Source: Xanthobacteraceae bacterium (GTDB lineage Bacteria; Pseudomonadota; Alphaproteobacteria; Rhizobiales; Xanthobacteraceae). Taken from it: a stretch of DNA of 47,463 nt. The notes beneath the pieces were generated by a model. It searched no databases and was not told the origin of the DNA. It saw only the letters and a list, made by a program, of their open reading frames with translations. Positions 6,291-46,531 of the stretch are shown here, piece after piece; position 1 is the first letter of the stretch, and every line of letters starts with the position of its first letter. The stretch is from NCBI GenBank assembly GCA_022841625.1, contig JALHRD010000037.1:1-47463 (forward strand). Direction: 5' to 3'. The translations under genes were made by a program, and so were the position numbers.

Positions 6291-6923
6291 ATGTTCACCC
6301 TCTATTCAATGCAGCGGTCTGGCAACAGTTACAAAGTGAGGCTCACCCTCGCTCAGCTCGGCTTGCCGTATCGGCTGGTGGAGGTCGACATCCTCAAGGG
6401 CGAAAGCCATACGCCGGAGTTCCTGCAGAAGAACCCCAGCGGCCAGGTGCCGCTGCTTGAAGTGGCACCCGGGCGTCACATCGCGGAATCGAACGCCATT
6501 CTTTGGTATGTCGCCGGCGGCACATCGCTCGCTCCTGAAGATCGCATCGATCGCGCCGAAGCGCTGCAATGGATGTTCTTCGAGCAGCACAGCCTCGAAC
6601 CCAATCTCGGCGCGGCCTATTTTTGGCTGGCTTTGGTGAAGGGCGGCCGCGAATTGCAGAGCCACGCAATGGACGACTGGATGGAAGAAGGCTACCGGTC
6701 GCTGCGCGTCATGGAAGATCACCTCAGGCGTAGCGACTATTTCGCCGCCGGGCGCTACACCATCGCCGACATCGCGCTCTACGCCTATACCCACCTCGCG
6801 CATCGCGCCGACTACGACCTCGACTCGTTTCCGGCGATCCGGCGCTGGCTTGACCGGGTGGCCGCCGAACCGCGGCACATCGCCATGGACTGGCAACCGA
6901 TCGCCGTTGAGACGTCGCAGTGA
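6291..6923 (+). CDS. Glutathione S-transferase family protein
   Basis: A 210-residue cytosolic protein of usual GST length. The N-terminal thioredoxin-like domain shows MFTLYSMQRSGNSYKVRLTL, NPSGQVPLLE (with the cis-proline) and ESNAILWYV, which binds the glutathione gamma-glutamyl group; the C-terminal helical domain carries GRYTIADIALYAYTH with the conserved N-capping box. The probable active residue is Ser10 or Ser7, as in beta/theta-like bacterial GSTs. The start at 6291 begins exactly at the conserved MFTLY strand; the in-frame extension to 6186 lacks family likeness. The next gene begins about 80 bases downstream. Substrate unknown. Confidence 0.88.
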   Translation: MFTLYSMQRSGNSYKVRLTLAQLGLPYRLVEVDILKGESHTPEFLQKNPSGQVPLLEVAPGRHIAESNAILWYVAGGTSLAPEDRIDRAEALQWMFFEQHSLEPNLGAAYFWLALVKGGRELQSHAMDDWMEEGYRSLRVMEDHLRRSDYFAAGRYTIADIALYAYTHLAHRADYDLDSFPAIRRWLDRVAAEPRHIAMDWQPIAVETSQ

Positions 6924-7002
6924 CGCGCGCCGCTTCGGTTTTGACCTCGTCCTGTCAATGTCTATGCTGGCGATCCACGAATTAAGACTTAGGAGTTATC
7001 GG

Positions 7003-7965
7003 ATGCGCGCCGTCGCGTTGCTTGTCGCCACGCTCGCGGCCCTGCCGTCGATCCAAACCGTGCGCGCGCAGGACTGGCCGACCAAGCCGGTACGCATTGT
7101 GGTGCCGTTCCCGGCCGGCGGCAGCACCGACCGGATGACGCGGCTGGTCGCAGAGGACCTCAGCAAGGTCTTCAAACAGCAATTCGTGGTCGAGAACCGT
7201 CCCGGCGCGGGTGGCGCCCTCGGTGCGGCGCAAGTCGCGCGCGCCGAACCCGACGGCTATACGCTGCTGGCTGGCGGCTTCGGCCCCCACATTCTCGGGC
7301 CGGCCAGCGGCGTGAAGGCCGATTACGACCCGATCGCCGACTTCAGCCATATCGTCATGATGGGTGGTGAGACCTACATCTTCGCGGCTCATGCCACGCT
7401 TGGCGTGCAATCGCTGGCCGATGTCGTGCGGCTGGCAAACGACAAGCCGATCAATTTTGGATCGCCGGGCACCGGCACGCTCGGCCAATTGATGGTCGAT
7501 CAGTTTCGCCTGAAGGTCGGCGCGAACCGGATCAACCATGTGCCCTATCGCGGCGGCGCGCCGTTGCAGACCGATTTCATCGGCAATCACGTACCGCTGG
7601 CAACGCTGCCGATCGCACCGATGCTCCCGCACATTACCGCCGGCACGATCGTACCCCTCGCAGTCAGTTCAAGCGAACGCAGTTCCGCGCTGCCGAACGT
7701 GCCCACGCTCGCGCAAAGTGGCTATCCGGAAATTGGCGGCGCCATTTGGTTCTGGCTGACGGGCCCGAAGAATCTACCGCCGCCGGTGGTGAACCGGCTG
7801 AACCAGGAAGTACGGCGTTACCTTGCGACCGCGCCAGTGAGAGACATCTTCGCGCGTGACGCCTTGATGACCATGGATGCGGGTTCCGCCGCGCTCACCC
7901 GCTTCATCGCCGACGAAATCAAACGCTGGAGCGCGATTTACCGCCAGCTCGGACCCGACAAGTAA
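7003..7965 (+). CDS. TctC/Bug family periplasmic substrate-binding protein
   Basis: A 320-residue exported receptor of the tripartite tricarboxylate transporter type. The signal peptide ends near VRAQ (about residue 22), followed by DWPTKPVRIVVPFPAGGSTD, the family's first strand and ligand loop, then VENRPGAGGALGA and PYRGGAPLQTD. Such proteins bind carboxylates or other small organic acids and normally hand them to TctAB permeases; no TctA or TctB gene is in the window, so this is an orphan receptor. The start at 7003 is supported by AGGAG at 6991-6995. The ligand cannot be told from the sequence. Confidence 0.9.
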   Translation: MRAVALLVATLAALPSIQTVRAQDWPTKPVRIVVPFPAGGSTDRMTRLVAEDLSKVFKQQFVVENRPGAGGALGAAQVARAEPDGYTLLAGGFGPHILGPASGVKADYDPIADFSHIVMMGGETYIFAAHATLGVQSLADVVRLANDKPINFGSPGTGTLGQLMVDQFRLKVGANRINHVPYRGGAPLQTDFIGNHVPLATLPIAPMLPHITAGTIVPLAVSSSERSSALPNVPTLAQSGYPEIGGAIWFWLTGPKNLPPPVVNRLNQEVRRYLATAPVRDIFARDALMTMDAGSAALTRFIADEIKRWSAIYRQLGPDK

Positions 7966-41022: not shown

Positions 41023-41096
41023 AAAGCCCACCGTATTTGCGGCTCTGCTCAATACCGACCCTTCCCTCGCCGCGTCGCGGGTCCCATATTGCCGGA

Positions 41097-43970
<2,874 letters not shown>

Positions 43971-44006
43971 TAAGCATTCTCGGTGGAATCGATTAGATTA
44001 GGTCAC

Positions 44007-44831
44007 ATGGACAAGGAGCCCTCCCAGATTTTTGCGTCGTTGACAGCGCTTGGCTATCAGATCGAATTTCATTCTCATTCCAAGGCAATACTTTCAATTG
44101 ATTTCCCCGACGCGCTCATAGAATTGGAGCGCGCGTTGGGCGGCCTTACCATTCCAATCGAGGAAATCATTGCTGGCGGCGGGGGCGAGGCAAAAGGCAC
44201 CCAGCGCTTGCGGCGGGCATTGACAGCCCTGCAATGGGCGAAAACTACCTTCGAGATAAAAAAGACGATTAACGGTCGCGAACGAGAGGCAGTCTCACAC
44301 GAAATCGATCACGTTCGAGAATTTACCACTGGCGTGGTGGCACTTGAGATTGAATGGAACAACAAGGATCCTTTTTTCGATCGCGACCTGGAAAATTTTA
44401 AACGCCTACACAGCGACGGCGGAATATCAGTCGGCATTATCGTGACAAGAGGAAAGTCACTTCACGACAACATGAGAGCGCTCGTCGGTCGCTTCTATGA
44501 TGAGAGGCAGATTCAGAGCTTTGAAAGCCTCAAGCCATGGGGATACGAACCGACAGCGAAGCAACGACGAGCGATCGATTCGCGCATCAGTCGAAAGAGA
44601 AACCCGCTAACCTTTCGCGAAGCTTTCGTGGACAAGTTTGTCTCCGACAAATTCGGTGAGGCGACGACTCATTGGCGGAAATTGAACGATCGCGTTCATC
44701 GGGGAGTTGGTAACCCATGTCCACTGGTCCTCATTGGATTGCCCGATAGCATCGTCACTTTCCACGAAGGCCAGGACGCCTTGGCGGAAGTACTGAAAAA
44801 CGAACGTGAAGATGATGCCGGCGATGAATAA
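44007..44831 (+). CDS. BglII/BstYI-type restriction endonuclease 1
   Basis: A 274-residue type II nuclease. The active-site block VALEIEWNNKDPFFDRDL is at residues 111-128, with Asp101 ahead and Glu114 and Glu116 in the E-x-E position, the BamHI/BglII/BstYI arrangement of the PD-(D/E)XK fold. FGEATTHWRKLNDRVHRG and CPLVLIGLP complete the family core near the C-terminus. Relative to the second nuclease it has about 60 extra residues between the strand VGIIVTRG (142-149) and FGEATTH (216-222). GC content (~50%) is well under uvrB. Its stop touches that of the convergent methyltransferase gene. The start at 44007 is preferred over an upstream GTG (43983) for its AGG-type site. A cognate methyl mark is made by the adjacent gene. 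Confidence 0.88.
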   Translation: MDKEPSQIFASLTALGYQIEFHSHSKAILSIDFPDALIELERALGGLTIPIEEIIAGGGGEAKGTQRLRRALTALQWAKTTFEIKKTINGREREAVSHEIDHVREFTTGVVALEIEWNNKDPFFDRDLENFKRLHSDGGISVGIIVTRGKSLHDNMRALVGRFYDERQIQSFESLKPWGYEPTAKQRRAIDSRISRKRNPLTFREAFVDKFVSDKFGEATTHWRKLNDRVHRGVGNPCPLVLIGLPDSIVTFHEGQDALAEVLKNEREDDAGDE

Positions 44832-45605
44832 CTATTCGGCGGGAATTAAGCCAGTTTGCGAATGGTGTGCGTAAGTTTTCCAGGTTGGCCGGTAATCATC
44901 CAATGCCTGATGACCCCAAGCGGCCCAGCCTTCCCGCATACCTCGCGCAAAAAGCTCAAGATACGGCCCAGCGCTGCAAGCCTCGATGATCTCGTATTGC
45001 TCATCCGGCTTGCGCGAGTGCTCGCGTTTTCGCGTCGCGAGTAGGTTCACCTGACGTCGCCCCGGCGCGAGTGTGCGCGCATTCTTGCCGCGTACACCAA
45101 ACAGAATCAATTCAGTGACATTGCGGAAATAGAAGCCGACCCCGCGCCCGTCCGAGCCGCCGTCCTTGCGCACCTTATGCCAGACGATATTGGACTTGTA
45201 GGTGAAACCCCAAGCCTTCATGACAGCAAGGCCGTCCGGCAACATGGCGTTCGGACACCAGAGATACAGATGCGCCGTCGGCGCAATGAGTTCAGAGATC
45301 GGCAGTGCCATGATCTCGTCGAGCTTCATCGTAGAGTAGCGCGACAGCCGACGATGCTCGGGCGCAACCTTGCCGGTCTTGTTGGTGAACTGCCACGGCG
45401 GATCGGCAAGGATGGTGGCGAAGCGGCGACCTTGCGCGAATCCCAGAAGGTCCGTGGCGGCGTCGCGGCCCAGCCCTACAGTCGGAGTTGCGCTCTTGGG
45501 AGCTGGAGAAATATCGAACAACTTTGCTTGGCGGGCATCCTCGCGCTTCCGCCCTTTGCGCGCGGCGTTCGCGCGACGACCGTTGCGCTCCTTAGTCTTC
45601 GACAT
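44832..45605 (-). CDS. MT-A70 family DNA adenine methyltransferase
   Basis: A 257-residue N6-adenine methyltransferase of the MT-A70 class. The catalytic DPPW is at residues 68-71 in FATILADPPWQF, followed by the SAM-region strand LYLWCPNAMLPDGLAVMKAWGF and NIVWHKVRK, and ELFARGMREGWAAWG at the C-terminus. The first ~60 residues are basic and low-complexity (RRANAARKGRKRED). It would protect host DNA against the flanking nucleases. The start at 45605 has GTGGAG seven bases ahead and overlaps the second nuclease gene by 14 bases, so the two are translationally coupled. Confidence 0.9.
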   Translation of the reverse strand: MSKTKERNGRRANAARKGRKREDARQAKLFDISPAPKSATPTVGLGRDAATDLLGFAQGRRFATILADPPWQFTNKTGKVAPEHRRLSRYSTMKLDEIMALPISELIAPTAHLYLWCPNAMLPDGLAVMKAWGFTYKSNIVWHKVRKDGGSDGRGVGFYFRNVTELILFGVRGKNARTLAPGRRQVNLLATRKREHSRKPDEQYEIIEACSAGPYLELFARGMREGWAAWGHQALDDYRPTWKTYAHHSQTGLIPAE

Positions 45606-46200
45606 AGGCGGCTCCACTGATGCCGAAGACAACAACGGGACATCCGCCGCCGCTTCCGCCGTCAAGCCTCGGACGTAGCTTCGCCATGTGAGTCGTGGAG
45701 TTGCCAAAGCTAGGCCCTCGACCGAGCTTGTTGAATATCTTCTGCAACTCCGTGCACCGCGTGATGATGACCCCAGCGTCGATGGCTCGCAGCTCGAACA
45801 GCAACCGAAAATTGTTCAGGTCGCGATCGAAGAGAGGATCCTTGTTGTTCCACTCGACTTCGAGCGCCACGCGATTCTTGTAGCAGTCCACCTTGTGGGT
45901 CGGGGTGACGTACTCGCTGTTGTCCACGACGATCTTTGTGTCGAACTTCTTTTCCACCCAGCCAAGCCTGGTGAAATGGGAGTCGAGCTTGCTGGAAATG
46001 AAGCCTTTCGAGCCGCCCGGCTTCAATACGTCGCTGCGGAGCAGCGAGAAACCGCGCAACACTTCCAGAATGTTTTCCCATTCGCTGGGGTGCGCAGCCG
46101 CTAAGATCGCCAAGCCATTGCGCCATTCGTTCACCTCATAGCGCGCTGATATGTCGGCCGGGACGATGCTTTGATTCGCCATCGCCGCATTCTGGTCCAT
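45592..46200 (-). CDS. BglII/BstYI-type restriction endonuclease 2
   Basis: A 202-residue nuclease, close to BstYI's length. VALEVEWNNKDPLFDRDL lies at residues 111-128, the same numbering as nuclease 1, with 16 of 18 residues identical; Asp105, Glu114 and Glu116 are the likely catalytic set. GVIITRCTELQKIF, FGNSTTHMAKLRPRLDGG and CPVVVFGIS follow. The N-terminal half differs greatly from nuclease 1. It is the first gene of a two-gene unit with the methyltransferase. The start at 46200 is uncertain; an ATG at 46182 is an alternative. Confidence 0.88.
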   Translation of the reverse strand: MDQNAAMANQSIVPADISARYEVNEWRNGLAILAAAHPSEWENILEVLRGFSLLRSDVLKPGGSKGFISSKLDSHFTRLGWVEKKFDTKIVVDNSEYVTPTHKVDCYKNRVALEVEWNNKDPLFDRDLNNFRLLFELRAIDAGVIITRCTELQKIFNKLGRGPSFGNSTTHMAKLRPRLDGGSGGGCPVVVFGISGAAYVED

Positions 46201-46531
46201 CGGAACGCGCTGAACACTTGCCTTTTTATTGCGTTCCCGTTACGTTCTCAAGCTAATTCTTCAGGCGGATTTGCCCGGATAGTGATGGGCAGCACCGTGC
46301 TATGGGAAGCGCGACGCAAGCTCCCAAGCTGTTACGAGATCTTGACGTCAATCCCGTGCTCGTCGACGACACCGTTTACGTTGATCGAATATCACCGCAT
46401 CCGTTGCGCTGCGGCTTGCAGAGGCGACTACGACCTGCGCCGCGGATCGAGAAACGGGGGGCAGGTCCTGCCGGCAGAACCGGCCGCCCACCACGCAGTG
46501 ACCGCCCGCCCACCCGCCACTTGGAGACCGC
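46201..46531. other. Intergenic gap, no gene seen
   Basis: About 330 bases upstream of nuclease 2 and of the small zinc-ribbon gene. It should hold their divergent promoters; I see no clear boxes or recognisable repeats. Confidence 0.45.

Follow-up and report, generated by a model that had tools for sequence, protein, structure and literature searches.

The nuclease and the methylase of a type II restriction system are commonly regarded as partners that evolved together. The locus described here raises the question of how one methylase could serve two nucleases. It lies at the right end of a 47,463-bp stretch of DNA from a Xanthobacteraceae bacterium (contig JALHRD010000037.1 of assembly GCA_022841625.1), hereafter the window, and consists of three intact open reading frames (ORFs): R1 (44007..44831, plus strand), a putative BglII/BstYI-family nuclease of the long subfamily with 274 residues; M (44832..45605, minus strand), an MT-A70 family DNA methyltransferase of 257 residues; and R2 (45592..46200, minus strand), a putative BglII/BstYI-family nuclease of the short subfamily with 202 residues. 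M is convergent with R1 and lies downstream of R2. R1 and M meet at their stop codons, whereas R2 and M, encoded on one strand, share 14 bases. We consider it probable that two nucleases of different subfamilies, each usable alone as a homodimer, share this one methylase and that their sites, likely RGATCY, are methylated by M.

The preliminary description of the locus had placed two nucleases of one family around a single MT-A70 methylase, and both the ORFs and the profile matches bear this out. R1 (76.4 bits) and R2 (141 bits) exceeded the 26-bit cut-off of PF09195 (Endonuc-BglII). M matched MT-A70 (PF05063) with 107.6 bits against a cut-off of 23.9, scored 297 bits as PADLOC MTase_II, and contains a DPPW motif; it probably makes N6-methyladenine (m6A). 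Nothing in NCBIfam matched R1, M, or R2. R1 and R2 are the only PF09195 genes of the source genome, and M is present in a single copy. The starts of R1 and M are internal ATG codons in slightly longer listed ORFs. The start of M at 45605 was our choice, and an internal start is possible because the homology of relatives mostly begins at M residue 40-50.

R1 and R2 had also been described as paralogs. BLASTP aligned them over 229 columns with 26% identity and an E-value of 5e-24, and the likeness is therefore not due to chance. A local duplication was ruled out, as the two proteins belong to separate subfamilies and share only that 26% identity. The lengths given for them were correct, but the N-terminal halves do not differ as had been claimed: R1 and R2 align over most of their length, and the length gap is mainly an insert of ~50 residues in R1 past residue ~160 (44490..44651, plus strand, limits approximate) with no counterpart in R2. 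A GC content near 50%, taken earlier as a sign of transfer, applies to R1 alone (51.5%) and not to M (59.9%) or R2 (57.0%); the values for the window and for the neighboring uvrB gene are 63.0% and 66.3%, respectively.

Catalytic residues of the D...ExQ/E type, a PD-(D/E)xK kind of site, appear to be present in R1 (D101/E114/E116) as well as in R2 (D105/E114/E116). The block VALE[IV]EWNNKDP[FL]FDRDL occupies residues 111-128 of both proteins, as noted before, and reads VALEIEWNNKDPFFDRDL in R1 (44337..44390, plus strand) and VALEVEWNNKDPLFDRDL in R2 (45817..45870, minus strand). In an alignment of the R1 subfamily (45 rows), D101, E114, E116, and K120 were invariant; in that of the R2 subfamily (30 rows), D105 and E116 were invariant and E114 was at least 90% conserved. 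The spacing between D and E is four residues longer in R1 than in R2. The acidic motif was kept as ExEWNN in 101 of 101 R1 sequences and as D-x8/9-ExEWN in 39 of 41 R2 sequences. Further nuclease classes, R3 to R6, carry DxE (three R3 and seven R4 sequences) or ExQ (15 of 16 R5, which are BstYI-like, and all seven R6). The classes are 22-35% identical in alignments of >130 columns. In a 61-row nuclease tree, R1, R3, and R6 formed starred one-sided groups and R4 and R5 had a support of 94, while R2 took two changes, neither of them forced by a starred branch.

Separate structure predictions for R1 and R2, which had been proposed as a check, gave models with predicted local distance difference test (pLDDT) values of 89.4 and 89.6. 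In Foldseek, BstYI was the best match of both (R1, E 8.5e-06 and template modeling (TM) score by query 0.46; R2, E 1.8e-07 and TM 0.69). All three PDB matches of the R1 model at E <= 0.001 were BstYI, and the R2 model matched BstYI first, then BamHI and OkrAI. Judged by these models, R1 and R2 would both have the BstYI/BglII fold, with a modest fit for R1. Sequence searches of the PDB with R1 or R2 singly found no restriction enzyme. With the R2 profile and E-values up to 1, the single match was BstYI, whose D119, E128, and Q130 align opposite R2 D105, E114, and E116.

The partners of related methylases carry the main argument. Of 167 methylase rows, one (L133) is a truncated copy of the window; without it, 166 distinct methylases with their neighbors were available. 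R1 alone accompanied 83 of them, R2 alone 43, R4 six, and R3 two; 30 had none and two had a double, counts that are not frequencies, since the methylases were drawn partly via R1, R2, and M queries. The R2 partners include broken genes (L279, L185), pieces (L131), and some genes cut by contig ends. As loci from the genome searches had flanks of ~1.5 kb unless retrieved anew, "none" may conceal a more distant nuclease; nine of these 30 rows have <1.2 kb on one side. Among the nine is L120, which has a BstYI-like nuclease instead, a gene missed by the nuclease profile built for the partner calls and identified later. By gene neighborhood, no fewer than five PF09195 subfamilies (R1-R4 plus the BstYI-like R5) accompany the M family. 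The possibility raised earlier that one nuclease might be a decaying duplicate, never kept with the methylase or without catalytic residues in relatives, does not agree with these data: the R1 and R2 classes each occur with the methylase elsewhere, and the acidic motif is retained.

Exchange of partners was also evident from a methylase tree of 164 rows (the short L317 and L185 were excluded), a quick tree with many weak branches. On it, the classes R1-R4 require 29 changes. With 33 changes for the R1 label as compared with 55 under shuffled labels, clustering is present, yet there has been much exchange. Although 84 of the 161 inner branches are open, the starred branches alone force at least nine changes for R1 and at least seven for R2, each counted against all other rows including those without nuclease. 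In four pairs of closely related methylases, the nucleases belong to different classes, one methylase being accompanied by R1 and its counterpart by R2 or R4 (L184/L195, 90.4% identity; L182/L189, 92.7%; L314/L312, 93.0%; L280/L287, 94.5%). L312 and L314, whose genomes both belong to another genus within the family, have R1 and R2 exchanged in the same slot. They share uvrB (89%), M plus spacer (78%, DNA level), and, from ~0.8 and ~0.15 kb past the nuclease onward, five blocks of the far flank (81-94%).

Other genes were seen beside such methylases. In two MT-A70 loci without PF09195, related genes follow M, at 6113-7393 in L296 (convergent with M) and at 4810-5898 in L293 (same strand). The former carries an HNH_2 domain, and its relative, 32% identical, has no HNH match; they are possibly a further nuclease type on an MT-A70 methylase. 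In L306, a DndB/DpdB-like gene (6666-7826) is convergent with a methylase lacking a PF09195 nuclease.

The M family recurs beside uvrB, which in the window occupies 41037..43970 on the plus strand (ORF as listed). R1, M, and R2 lie in an island (43972..46516) that is missing from the congeners G001 and G003. Compared with these, homology of uvrB stops at 43970/43971 and that of the flank restarts at 46517/46523. At their empty sites, only 12 and 115 bases separate uvrB from the right flank; thus, the three genes constitute an insert of ~2.5 kb. The congeners G004, G005, G006, and G007 carry, close to that flank sequence, an MT-A70 methylase with 76-84% identity to M; in G007 it is close to uvrB as well. 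A PF09195 search of these four genomes, which are 69-93% complete and in hundreds of contigs, found none. Of 296 genomes in the GTDB family, 44 carry the methylase at E <=1e-40, always as one copy, and 24 of the 44 gave no PF09195 match in the family searches.

In 21 distinct methylase loci uvrB was seen, within 2 kb in 20 and at 5.3 kb in one; many other methylases are away from uvrB or on contigs too short to judge. It was downstream of and antiparallel to M in 21 of 21. The nuclease at these loci was R1 in seven and R2 in eight (broken in L279); four had none and two a double. The slot between uvrB and M holds R1 in L290, L017, and the window and R3 in L198; other nucleases stand beyond M. 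The arrangement of R1 and M in the window equals that of L290 (one DNA match of 1379 columns, 71.5%), and the arrangement of M and R2 equals that of L279. At the contig end, 47340-47463 resembles part of an insertion element by eye.

How often two nucleases stand together was assessed by taxon-wide PF09195 searches not aimed at R1, which gave 87 positive genomes (6 + 28 + 27 + 19 + 7), one of which, G1300, scored below the cut-off. An adjacent PF09195 pair was present in two of the 87, the window included, and the arrangement is as unusual as had been supposed. In G125, G429, and G360, the matches were at separate places. The one-contig genome G360 (C1) has four dispersed matches of the same score and length (L118, L132, and two more); the two examined more closely were BstYI-like, and the four are possibly carried by a mobile element. 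The second MT-A70 double is that of G779 (L198), in the order uvrB> R3> <M R1>, and the R3 motif there is DxE instead of ExE. Its R1 belongs to a starred group of 10 rows that excludes the window R1, whose nearest rows in the R1 tree are L008, L009, and L176. Its M is 95% identical to that of L079, and the window M is nearest L291 and L280. On the R1 tree, two changes are required to account for these two double states. Because both the second nuclease and the slot of R1 differ, we read the doubles of the window and G779 as having separate origins.

R1 relatives occur in doubles with another kind of methylase as well. Among the best 80 of at least 569 R1 relatives confirmed in genome contigs, 62 had an MT-A70 methylase in the locus, 10 a cytosine-5 methylase, and eight neither. 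A second PF09195 nuclease was present in eight of the 10 cytosine-5 loci, in the fixed order C5-methylase> <R5 or R6, R1>. It was the BstYI-like R5 in L010, L012, L033, and L040 and R6 in L016, L019, L020, and L030. The hosts are Rhizobium, Pseudochrobactrum, Sphingomonas (two), Phenylobacterium, and metagenome-assembled genomes of Brevundimonas, Rhodobiaceae, and Rhodobacteraceae. The cytosine-5 methylases compared were 50-81% identical, pointing to a long-lived three-gene layout. No MT-A70 methylase was found at E 1e-20 in any of the 10 genomes with cytosine-5 methylase and R1; protection against both nucleases thus presumably comes from the cytosine-5 enzyme. Of the eight genomes in which R1 had no adjacent methylase, six have an MT-A70 methylase elsewhere and two do not. 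R2 was absent from the examined stretch in these best 80 R1 loci as well as in nine R1-class viral loci. Vsr-like mismatch endonuclease genes adjoin the cytosine-5 methylase or R1 in L010, L019, and L028. In L010, whose record is that of a complete chromosome, the cytosine-5 methylase nevertheless appears as two ORFs.

BstYI cuts RGATCY. Full-length BstYI relatives were found with a cytosine-5 methylase in L010 (E 8e-74) and with an MT-A70 methylase in L120 (E 1e-79); the BstYI-like nucleases of L116, L117, and L168 accompany N6_N4 methylases. m6A in RGATCY was reported in the methylome of Azospirillum thiophilum (PMC4706337) and, in the accessible excerpts of the respective accounts, in Zymomonas CP3 (PMC8088579), at low frequency in some Sinorhizobium meliloti strains (PMC11711589), and in Chromohalobacter salexigens, where M.CsaI is listed as a putative GATC methylase (PMC3526280). 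Excerpts likewise list RGATCY for a methylase gene of 651 bp in Methylococcus capsulatus that has no nuclease nearby (PMC13390346) and give N4-methylcytosine (m4C) in this site for Rhodobacter blasticus (PMC6256690). Since BstYI relatives accompany both kinds of methylase and methylomes report both m6A and m4C in RGATCY, we favor, with some reserve, RGATCY as the common target of the M family and its nucleases.

M would then mark the target in host DNA, and R1 and R2, each as a homodimer, would cut unmarked DNA. Where a methylase already guards the site, a new nuclease for that site could enter without a methylase of its own, and the old nuclease could be lost. Such a scheme, in which protection comes first, would explain swaps, solitary methylases, and double occupancy together. 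Nucleases would be gained, lost, and swapped in the slots on either side of M at the 3' site of uvrB, and the window would be a doubly occupied case: an R2-M unit as found beside uvrB in relatives, with R1 placed between uvrB and M in the way of R1-M cassettes. The partner exchange is strong indirect evidence that R1 and R2 could act as an isoschizomer pair under M. We infer that their specificities are the same or nested. The genes also appear to be under selection: computable dN/dS values (nonsynonymous over synonymous divergence) were 0.065-0.133 for R2 and 0.039-0.115 for M, and dN relative to relatives was low for all three, pointing to selection on each gene, not on R1 and R2 as a pair. 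Selection on R1 was judged from low dN alone because synonymous sites were saturated in all R1 comparisons.

Several observations weigh against this explanation. Saturation affected three of three R1, one of four R2, and one of five M comparisons. The match of the R2 profile to BstYI was weak (E 0.0016 for the whole sequence, 0.066 for the best stretch), and a PDB search with the R1 profile gave no restriction enzyme but five unrelated chains at E >=0.42. For M.Ath2165II of A. thiophilum and MCA0246 of M. capsulatus, a sequence link to the M family was not achieved; the only points in its favor are size (651 bp, as for the ORF of the L145 methylase) and target. The case of M.CsaI means that m6A in RGATCY does not by itself indicate an MT-A70 enzyme, to judge from the excerpted account, and MT-A70 is not named in the accessible parts of the published accounts of RGATCY methylation. 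A sliding comparison of M with 22 methylases, aimed at a crossover inside M joining R1-M and M-R2 alleles, gave no clear switch, the alleles being too diverged. The methylases of both MT-A70 doubles belong to a single 15-row group with a support of 83. The R1 genes of the cytosine-5 doubles mostly cluster (three changes, so that a single origin is possible), and the constancy of R1 in these eight loci is partly by design because R1 was the query. Finally, nested but different targets would yield the same pattern of exchange.

That last point leads to a rival in which M covers a degenerate site (such as RGATCY), with one nuclease cutting every form of the site and the second one only a subset (such as AGATCT or GGATCC). 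Every partner exchange seen fits it, the nuclease classes are 22-35% identical, and BglII, which cuts AGATCT according to the part of the source available (PMC4882945), shares one Pfam family with BstYI. The same-slot exchange is simplest with one target, yet it does not separate the two readings, and we regard nested specificities as rather unlikely. The suggestion that one methylase guards two specificities survives in the form of identical or nested ones. Somewhat less doubtful, and compatible with sharing of M by both nucleases, is a passing state in which R1 recently joined an intact R2-M unit and one nuclease is to be lost; R1 would then be the later arrival. The rarity of MT-A70 double occupancy (the two of 87 PF09195-positive genomes), the frequency of methylases without PF09195 (the 24 of 44 family genomes), the GC content of R1, the lowest of the three, and the broken R2 of the relative L279 speak for it. 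R1 and R2 are intact with low dN, however, and the cytosine-5 three-gene layout recurs in eight loci with some methylases only 50% identical.

The preliminary description had further suggested a heterodimer for an asymmetric site. An obligate R1-R2 heterodimer of the BbvCI kind would agree with two homologous intact subunits in one locus. But each nuclease subfamily is found with this methylase family in the absence of the other (at 83 of the 166 methylases for R1 and at 43 for R2), the second nuclease varies among double loci (R2, R3, R5, R6), and there is one methylase gene, whereas asymmetric sites usually require two. We therefore consider it very improbable. Still more so is a fusion of two cassettes by assembly. 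It is true that the window makes up an entire contig in an assembly of 71 contigs, but the R1, M, and R2 genes overlap or abut, the uvrB side and the conserved far side match the empty site of congeners, and the same kind of layout exists in another genome (G779).

Sharing of M by R1 and R2 might be one instance of a class of type II restriction-modification (R-M) loci in which two non-orthologous nucleases with one target depend on one methylase and are both useful. We put this forward tentatively. R1 would be a general second nuclease that joins MT-A70 or cytosine-5 methylases and first nucleases of classes R2, R3, R5, and R6, and crossover or capture at a two-slot methylase would generate the pairs. 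If this is true, a phage DNA modification or anti-restriction protein directed against one nuclease could not escape restriction. The tie of the M family to several nuclease subfamilies suggests a route by which an R-M system may exchange its toxic component while the host survives, as a methylase already protecting a site would accept any nuclease for that site. This bears on the origin of solitary methylases and on wider phage protection by two nucleases with one target, and RGATCY is a testable target for a widespread methylase family.

Each gene taken singly is an ordinary member of its family; the recurrent layout of two nucleases and one methylase, the swap of nucleases in one slot, and the repeated occurrence beside uvrB are new. 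No account of two nucleases under one methylase was found in the accessible parts of the open-access literature, which covers few subscription journals. Simple type II R-M systems, with one nuclease and one methylase, do not fit the window with its two PF09195 genes around one M. BbvCI is a heterodimeric type II enzyme whose two homologous nuclease chains act together, whereas R1 and R2 are mostly found apart. BstYI (PDB 1sdo, 1vrr, 2p0j), the best structural match of both models and the only PDB match of the R2 profile, has ExQ where R1 and R2 have ExE, and R1 has the additional insert; structural matches of the models are 12-20% identical. Mesorhizobium phage Lo5R7ANS has an R2-class nuclease gene overlapping an MT-A70 methylase gene, and plasmid pXfc37 has an R1-class nuclease convergent with an MT-A70 methylase, each with one nuclease versus two in the window. 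The phage pair (L319) lies between the phage integrase and a tRNA-Leu gene, and the phage is a possible transfer vehicle. The BglII system has a nuclease of the same Pfam family as R1 and R2, but, as far as the excerpt of its description goes, it combines this with an N4-cytosine methylase, M.BglII, which makes AGAT4mCT, and a C gene, in place of an MT-A70 methylase and two nucleases (PMC4882945). Clocel_4005-4008 of Clostridium cellulovorans, likened to LlaJI in the available part of the report, resembles the window in having two nuclease genes and differs from it in having two methylase genes, where the window has one (PMC11779793).

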